44,304 nt of DNA, from positions 1 through 44,304 of the forward strand of contig JAQIBY010000151.1 of the NCBI GenBank assembly GCA_027858835.1. The letters are read 5' to 3'. A model generated the notes under the pieces. That model saw nothing but the letters and a program-made list of their open reading frames with translations. It had not been told where the DNA came from and did not search any database. Each line of letters opens with the position of its first letter. The first letter of the stretch is position 1. Of the stretch, positions 4,761 to 5,969 are shown piece by piece. The DNA is from Bacteroidales bacterium (lineage in GTDB: Bacteria; Bacteroidota; Bacteroidia; Bacteroidales; ML635J-15). The translations under genes were made by a program, and so were the position numbers.

Positions 4761-4800
4761 TAAAATTAATAGAAGTTGTTAAAATATTATTGTGTGGAAA

Positions 4801-4863
4801 GTATAAAGTCTGAGGGTATCTATTGACAGTGTAATAGCCGTTACTAACGGTTAGAAACGACTA
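4801..4863 (+). repeat. 63-nt hairpin repeat, copy 1
   Basis: Begins GTATAAAGTCT, has a variable middle, and ends with a 29-nt hairpin module: left arm TAGCCGTT (4835-4842), a loop containing CTAACGGTTAG, right arm AACGACTA (4856-4863). One C-A mismatch weakens the outer stem. All four copies share orientation, total length of 63 and the exact 34-nt distance from the GTATAA start to the hairpin. Confidence 0.85.
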
Positions 4864-4992
4864 TAATGTAACAAAATATATTAAATATTTATATTAAAAC
4901 AGCAAATCATTGATAATTAAGATAATAGTAATTCAATATATAAGTATATTGTTTTTAAATGTGTTAAATATTAGGTATATATTGTTGAAAAT

Positions 4993-5055
4993 GTATAACC
5001 TCTACATCCATGATTTAGCAATGGATTAGCCGTTACTAACGGTTAAAAACGATTA
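4993..5055 (+). repeat. 63-nt hairpin repeat, copy 2
   Basis: GTATAACCTCT start, then hairpin arms TAGCCGTT (5027-5034) and AACGATTA (5048-5055). This is the most degenerate stem, with one C-A mismatch and one G-T pair. The middle 23 nt differ from the other copies but keep the same length. Confidence 0.85.
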
Positions 5056-5282
5056 AAATGTGATAATTCAATGATTTTATTACTATAAAAATATAATAAC
5101 GGAATTATTATGATTTACAGTTTGTGTTTTTCTTTTTTGATGAAAATTGCATGGTGCTTTTTTATCCAAAATGAGACTCCAAGCTACATGCTGGCACCGG
5201 AAAGAGATTTAAAATAATTTTGGATAATATTGTTAGTATTTCATTTTTCTCTGATTTTTGAATCAAAACCTTACTTGATTAC

Positions 5283-5345
5283 GTATAAGTTCTGGAGTGC
5301 CGTGTGAGTCGTGCAATAGTCGTTGCTAACGGTTAAAAACGACTA
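5283..5345 (+). repeat. 63-nt hairpin repeat, copy 3
   Basis: GTATAAGTTCT start, then perfect arms TAGTCGTT (5317-5324) and AACGACTA (5338-5345). Compared with copy 4 both partners of one base pair have changed (C-G to T-A), which keeps the stem intact. It ends 29 nt before the start of the zinc-ribbon gene. Confidence 0.87.
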
Positions 5346-5374
5346 GGGTTTAAAATAATTATTATATTTATTAT

Positions 5375-5752
5375 ATGAAATGCAAAGTATGTAATAGTGA
5401 ATTTGTTGGACGAAAAGATAAGATTTTTTGTTCTGTACAATGTAAAAATGAGTATCACTTAACTTTGAGTGAGGTAACTAAAGATATGGCCTATCCTTTA
5501 GACAGGATTTTACACAGAAATCGTTCTATTTTATTAGAAATTATGGGACCAAAAGCGAGGAAAAAGCATGTACGTCGTTCTCTTTTGGTGAAAAAGAAAT
5601 TTCAATTTAAGTATTTGACTCATTTTAATGTCAACAGTAAAGGAAAAATGTACCATCATATTTATGATTTTGCTTGGATGGAGTTTTCAGATGATGAAGT
5701 ATTGATTGTTAAAACAAATAAACAATGGATTCCGGAGACCGAGAAAGCTTGA
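5375..5752 (+). CDS. Small zinc-ribbon protein of unknown function, bracketed by repeats
   Basis: Encodes 125 residues. The N terminus has a likely zinc ribbon: Cys3 and Cys6 in CKVC, then Cys19 and Cys23 in FCSVQC. The middle is strongly basic (KARKKHVRRSLLVKKK, about residues 63-78), and the C terminus is acidic and aromatic (YDFAWMEFSDDEVLIV). No signal peptide or membrane segment is seen, so a cytoplasmic nucleic-acid-binding role is plausible but not shown. I recall similar hypothetical proteins from Bacteroidota but no assigned function. The gene starts 29 nt after repeat copy 3 and stops 5 nt before copy 4, so gene plus repeat form a cassette-like unit. Codon content is AT-rich like its surroundings. 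Confidence 0.75.
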   Translation: MKCKVCNSEFVGRKDKIFCSVQCKNEYHLTLSEVTKDMAYPLDRILHRNRSILLEIMGPKARKKHVRRSLLVKKKFQFKYLTHFNVNSKGKMYHHIYDFAWMEFSDDEVLIVKTNKQWIPETEKA

Positions 5753-5757
5753 ATTAC

Positions 5758-5820
5758 GTAGAAGCTTTGTGTGTTCGTGAGAGTGAGTCAATAGCCGTTG
5801 CTAACGGTTAGAAACGGCTA
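5758..5820 (+). repeat. 63-nt hairpin repeat, copy 4
   Basis: GTAGAAGCTTT start and perfect arms TAGCCGTT (5792-5799) and AACGGCTA (5813-5820). The loop holds the 11-nt palindrome CTAACGGTTAG. Copies 3 and 4 are also alike just before the start (TTGATTACGTA versus TTGAATTACGTA). It lies 5 nt after the stop of the zinc-ribbon gene. Confidence 0.87.
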
Positions 5821-5969
5821 AGTGTGTTACTATCATACAATTTGTTAATAGAAAACAAGACTGCTGCGCTTTTTTATTTATCCTATTATCGAATTAATGA
5901 CTTAATAGAGGGCTATTCAGCATCTATATGTTTTACATTCGACTCCAATTTTATTACTTTTCTCAAGAA

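Follow-up and report, generated by a model that had tools for sequence, protein, structure and literature searches.

Four direct repeats on a Bacteroidales contig, with a single small gene lodged between two of them, raise the question of what kind of element they form and whether the gene belongs to it. The window (the whole stretch of DNA that was analysed, 44,304 nucleotides) corresponds to contig C67 of a genome (the own genome, G000) that totals 3.6 Mb in 184 contigs. The four same-strand 63-nt copies described in the earlier note, with spacers of 129, 227 and 412 nt, are present and are listed in Table 1; the 412-nt spacer, between copies 3 and 4, contains the ORF of the 125-aa protein. 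When the 15-nt core of the motif was searched for with up to three mismatches, the two strands of the window gave 15 matches, 11 of which fall in the array; 2.67 were expected, and none of 100 shuffles reached 15. The hairpin that the + strand could form is weak in all four copies (z −0.87 to −2.26). We propose that the array belongs to a repeat family whose 29-nt palindromic core is a candidate double-stranded, operator-like site of the protein encoded between copies 3 and 4, a reading that, taken as a whole, we find somewhat easier to accept than to reject.

Table 1. Features of the repeat array, in window positions.
Feature	Position	Strand	Description
Repeat copy 1	4801..4863	+	GTATAA box, 23-nt variable middle, 29-nt palindromic motif at 4835-4863
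Spacer, copy 1 to copy 2	4864..4992	.	129 nt, ORF-free
Repeat copy 2	4993..5055	+	Motif at 5027-5055
Spacer, copy 2 to copy 3	5056..5282	.	227 nt, no ORF of at least 50 aa
Repeat copy 3	5283..5345	+	Motif at 5317-5345; core TAACGGTT at −48 from the start codon of the 125-aa gene; candidate operator
Zinc-ribbon gene	5375..5752	+	125-aa protein, proposed cognate binding protein of the motif
Repeat copy 4	5758..5820	+	Motif at 5792-5820; begins 5 nt past the stop codon of the 125-aa gene

A covariance model was built from ten copies (the window's four, a pair on C47, a pair on C73 and single copies on C91 and C97) and searched against the own genome. It recovers its ten building copies at 70-78 bits; since the same ten sequences built the model, these matches are not independent, and the independent evidence is the pattern search. 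The remaining eight rows of the covariance search score lower: seven reflect the palindrome read on the reverse strand at the places of the ten copies, and one (0.35) is on C23. With the filters off, the search gave no additional copy standing out near the ten. Together, the pattern and covariance-model searches bear out the expectation that the element extends beyond the window: six more copies exist in the own genome and others in relatives, and the copies are found in arrays. The first box reads GTATAA in six of the ten copies, GTAGAA in three and ATATAA in one. Since the ten align without gaps, every one of them has TAG 34 nt from its first box. When only large ORFs are considered, all own-genome copies are intergenic, and those of the window, C73 and C91 lie between convergent genes.

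A hairpin can be drawn for the motif, and all four window copies come after glpK on the strand of that gene, which speaks for a structured RNA or a terminator read from it. We consider this interpretation, one of those offered in the earlier note, highly improbable. No Rfam match was found, and 403 of 500 shuffles equalled or exceeded the covariation score of 0.020 computed from ten sequences. One stem pair fails in seven of the ten copies, and no T-tract follows the hairpins. Furthermore, relatives carry long arrays without the gene between copies, with 25 exact motif matches on G018:C97 and 19 on G023:C198.

The protein encoded between copies 3 and 4 contains four cysteines spaced as in a zinc ribbon, and its predicted structure consists of a 37-residue helix and a small beta domain (pLDDT 91.9, pTM 0.70). 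It matched no Pfam or NCBIfam family above the cut-off; in PHROG, a weak HNH match to the zinc part was obtained, and the best hit of a PDB sequence search had an E value of 0.5. When the predicted structure was used for a fold search, none of the matches listed pointed with confidence to a DNA-binding fold: the best Foldseek E was 0.17, and the best VIA-align match was to RctB domains 2-3 (Z 6.0, 3.4 Å over 75 residues). A search of 41 relatives revealed close homologues (69-77%), besides the window's own, in G005, G018, G019 and G024, and gene fragments in G002 and G024. Most family members also carry a single-copy distant paralogue (29-40% identity) that has the zinc ribbon and several conserved residues in common with the 125-aa protein. 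In the clade of the window's protein (clade A), residues H47, R48, R50, D98 and W101 of P0001 are invariant or nearly so (alignment A6), and H47 and W101 are absent from the aligned paralogues, so that clade A proteins might conceivably have a catalytic role.

The gene and the repeats occur together. Direct repeats are present in the locus of all five full close homologues from the first 41 relatives versus none of 25 paralogue loci, seven of which have other short or simple direct repeats. The motif was found in 10 of 31 family genomes, with no matches to a reversed control pattern. A full clade-A gene is present in six of these ten genomes and in none of the other 21 (Fisher p 2.9e-4); when fragments are included, the counts become eight of ten and none of 21 (Fisher p 5.7e-6), the fragment-only genomes being G002 and G050 (54% over 46 residues). 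In the two others, G023 and G048, the motif is present and the gene was not detected. The stretches between adjacent motif copies were also gone through in the window and 26 loci, 103 intervals in all, with intervals containing N runs left out. An ORF of at least 60 aa was found in four of them, each time of the zinc-ribbon gene family, and in none of the other 99; the varying cargo of a cassette array, which the earlier note had envisaged, is therefore not what these intervals hold. At L108, whose copies were missed by the interval pattern, the gene is flanked on both sides by a stretch with two motif copies. Units are also dispersed within genomes.

One could suppose that the element is an ordinary MITE-like intergenic repeat spread by an unrelated transposase, the gene being a passenger in one array copy. 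The intergenic location of the own-genome copies and the dispersal of units are in keeping with this, as is the insertion of other small elements in the same places. For a mere passenger, however, linkage of a single gene across several genera and absence from the 21 gene-free genomes are unexpected, and so is the finding that the core keeps a set position ahead of the gene, in array-free, integrase-linked loci too (see below). Moreover, the 63-nt element has no inverted ends of the kind seen in MITEs. We regard the MITE-like explanation as unlikely. No empty site was obtained among the relatives searched: a search via a flanking gene matched two of 26 genomes and gave no usable empty site, and in a search via the glpK region the junction was kept in no relative.

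In G019 (L278, L281, L060 and L073), an element of ~120 nt sits within the motif, accompanied by a TTA duplication; a second insert has a TTAAT duplication. The motif thus serves as a target for other elements, and to this extent the suggestion of an insertion target stands; the cassette-type varying cargo that went with it is absent. Integration of units by crossover, leaving arrays that end in the motif, was also considered and rejected, since the G019 junctions are nested insertions.

A scan of a GTDB-based collection retrieved 66 clade A loci (two of them labelled by fragments only) from Bacteroidales, Flavobacteriaceae, Saprospiraceae and others. Fifty of these are loci from outside the array clade with sufficient upstream sequence, in seven the upstream sequence is too short, and nine belong to the array clade as assigned by identity and repeats. 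A match to a divergently oriented tyrosine recombinase, in some cases partial, was found within 917 nt at 48 of the 50 loci, the exceptions being L146 and L150. A linked site-specific recombinase, which the earlier note had proposed to look for, is thus found beside homologues of the resident gene in other Bacteroidota. No recombinase match was found beside any of the six array-clade loci with ~3 kb or more of upstream sequence. The three recombinases examined scored best against integron-integrase and XerA models, below the cut-offs of those models. Recombinase P0010 aligns with IntI4 in two stretches separated by 30 residues versus 67 in IntI4, i.e., it is ~37 residues shorter in this region, and we take the gap to be the missing IntI-specific extra domain that is described in PMC9668308. 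In the own genome, recombinase homologues were found only on C116 and C179 (E 1e-20), neither of which is a repeat contig. Such homologues occur elsewhere in array-bearing genomes, and at the three examined closely we saw no adjoining motif array. At L191:2560-4618 (G005:C165), a recombinase gene that follows a NusG-like gene (by eye) is accompanied by short direct repeats of ~35 nt in a different arrangement.

In Galbibacter, Algibacter and Tamlana, arrays are formed by palindromic repeats of ~125 nt, with 18 same-strand copies on one contig of Algibacter pectinivorans. In Galbibacter and Algibacter amylolyticus, these repeats are located after the 3′ end of the integrase gene; recombinase genes together with such arrays were seen at L122 and L163 (Galbibacter orientalis), L124, L127 and L132. 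Two of four ~125-nt repeats fold better than their shuffles (z −3.11 and −2.19) and two not clearly so (z −0.85 and −1.07). Galbibacter has two int-gene modules that are 96% identical, and at L163:2550-3520, between repeats of the Galbibacter array, mercury-type transporter-like and ArsR-type regulator-like genes were recognised by eye. Judging from this arrangement, we read the recombinase/repeat sets of Flavobacteriaceae as integron-like platforms. Bacteroidota are listed among the phyla with integrons in one account (PMC8618304), and the IntegronFinder 2.0 paper (PMC9024848) names one complete integron in Bacteroidetes proper, that of Salinibacter ruber. In the open-access literature covered by our searches, we recognised no published description of the present system.

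These neighbours bring up the possibility that the repeats are att-type sites of an integron-like system and that the array is of the cassette type but degenerate, its integrase having been lost or working in trans. Besides the integron-type recombinases next to homologous genes, the dispersal of units and the cassette-like look of the gene, which ends 5 nt ahead of copy 4 and at L108 has a two-copy stretch on both sides, speak for it. As described above, however, the 103 intervals hold no ORF of at least 60 aa except this gene, the junctions inside the G019 motif are nested insertions, and the recombinase homologues on C116 and C179 are not on repeat contigs. The integrase-bearing flavobacterial genomes examined build their arrays from the separate ~125-nt repeat. 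Nor do the ends of the element behave as the R″/R′ ends of attC: they are not complementary, the GTATAA box has no partner, and folding is limited to the 29-nt motif or to other, weak pairings. With no integrase at the array and no varying cargo, the view that the repeats are not canonical attC sites holds, and we consider att-type sites improbable. The likeness to an integron platform lies in the divergent recombinase of clade-A homologues and the same-strand ~125-nt arrays of Flavobacteriaceae, and the difference in the window's array, which has neither an adjoining integrase nor varying cargo, and in the shorter region of P0010 relative to IntI4.

The operator-like reading draws on the place of the core in loci of this wider family. 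With start codons picked by rule, 27 of the 46 loci examined outside the array clade were found to have the core (AACCGTTA/TAACGGTT) no more than 200 nt ahead of the gene, compared with 0.25 expected from shuffles, and in 10 of these 27 it lies at −56 to −58. It is also found upstream of the gene at all seven array-clade loci and at none of 25 paralogue loci. This constancy of place in homologous loci is what makes the copy 3 motif a candidate operator. In the other 19 of the 46 loci, the core was not found upstream. Seventeen core-less loci were scanned for other palindromes: four reached p<0.05, with a combined p of 5.7e-5 versus shuffles, and in the paralogue control two of 19 did (combined p 0.075). 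This lends modest support to an operator whose sequence would change with lineage. A 20-nt pattern gave 11 matches in six of seven integrase-linked genomes, the reversed control giving two. Six of the 11 are in modules of the gene and the integrase and five elsewhere, three of the latter apparently intergenic in Aureibaculum; such isolated copies show that the core has dispersed outside the array clade too.

In a tree of 56 proteins, the eight array-clade sequences, including that of the window, form one group (100/99). The array clade is nested within the integrase-linked clade A at a node of 98/82, and the nodes directly above it are weak (85/72 to 99/71). It is quite likely, as judged from these tree nodes of mixed support, that the gene and its site separated from an integrase-linked ancestor. 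The simplest history would have the two part from the integrase a single time, with the site multiplying afterwards.

Our explanation can be laid out as follows. In the wider family, the protein is encoded divergently from an integron-type recombinase, and the core often lies in the shared promoter region; acting there, the protein probably regulates its own expression and perhaps that of the integrase. In the Bacteroidales lineage of the window, the gene and the site would have split from the integrase, and the site would have multiplied into paired, tandem and dispersed copies. In this lineage the gene is still found between copies, one of them just upstream of its start codon. The extra copies are probably non-autonomous repeats that depend on the protein or titrate it, as substrates or decoys. 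On this view, the array has the appearance of a control site that came loose and increased in number.

Recognition of the motif by the zinc-ribbon protein, a binding predicted from comparative data, is likely in our judgement. That the spread of copies was helped by the protein rather than by unrelated recombination is a possibility to which we give slightly less than an even chance. The boldest version is rather doubtful. In it, the zinc-ribbon protein would have come free of an integron platform, and by recognising its own operator it would drive the tandem amplification and the dispersal of site-bearing units whose lengths are specific to each genome; the array would then be an integrase-free repeat system descended from an integron, and the protein the active partner in a new sort of repeat element. 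The operator-like reading is supported by the co-occurrence of gene and motif, the finding of no other gene between copies, the divergent recombinase, the upstream core, the other palindromes of core-less loci and the nesting in the tree; it is weakened by the 19 core-less loci, by G023 and G048, where the gene was not detected, by the isolated core copies in Aureibaculum, by the mixed support of the tree nodes and by the want of a confident DNA-binding fold match. It covers the 29-nt core and does not explain the GTATAA box and the 34-nt distance, which fall outside it.

The findings link an unnamed family of small zinc-ribbon proteins to integron-type integrases across Bacteroidota. They suggest that a repeat family can arise when a regulator leaves a recombination platform together with the site it binds. 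The protein family would also provide a candidate regulator for the integron-like platforms of Flavobacteriaceae and Saprospiraceae.

The earlier note further held that spacing itself is constrained. Beyond the element, some support comes from three pairs only: the spacers of the C47 and C73 pairs are 128 nt each versus 129 nt in the window's first pair; the other spacers of the window measure 227 and 412 nt. The elements of the three pairs match at 0.65-0.76. The identities of their spacers are at or near chance, namely 0.48 for window-C47, 0.39 for window-C73 and 0.45 for C47-C73, compared with shuffled means of 0.42, 0.40 and 0.35; listed by size, the p values of the three comparisons are 0.018, 0.034 and 0.642.

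Within most relatives' genomes, unit length is steady: 116 in G005, ~95-98 in G018, G019, G023 and G002, and 126-131 in G050; it is 109-111 with one interval of 217 in G051, and mixed in G024. Such steadiness often stems from homology of the units. Equal unit length was accordingly rejected as proof of a spacing ruler, since units of different arrays are homologous in G051, G050, G002 and C118/C119 of G005, where equal length may reflect ancestry. C137 of G005 has little in common with C118/C119 beyond the motif. The 128/128/129-nt spacers of the own genome are the sole equal lengths left without an explanation by ancestry, and two of their three spacer comparisons are marginal.

Among known systems, REP/RAYT resembles the present one in having short palindromic intergenic repeats that are dispersed and linked to one protein gene, and here the repeats occur as direct pairs. 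It differs in that the partner here is a zinc-ribbon protein and not a Y1 transposase, and in that the copies are direct and often tandem. The foot tag of REP (GTAG or CGTC) is likewise not the rule: among the ten copies of the window's family, GTAG occurs once, ATAG eight times and TTAG once. Repeats that are only 65-76% alike over 63 nt between loci argue against the near-identical repeats of CRISPR. Phage and plasmid origins were rejected: the motif pattern had no exact match in IMG/VR, where no relative from clade A could be confirmed, region 4761-5900 was unmatched in a phage collection, and three plasmid records gave only matches of 31-33%, i.e., at the level of the paralogue.

Finally, a diverged subfamily with a CACTAACGGTTA core was observed in the own genome at L070:3167-3681 and L071:1-192 (G000:C24 and C23). 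One of its pairs lies 192 nt apart, and its units of ~190 nt, 84-87% alike, are arranged head to tail.
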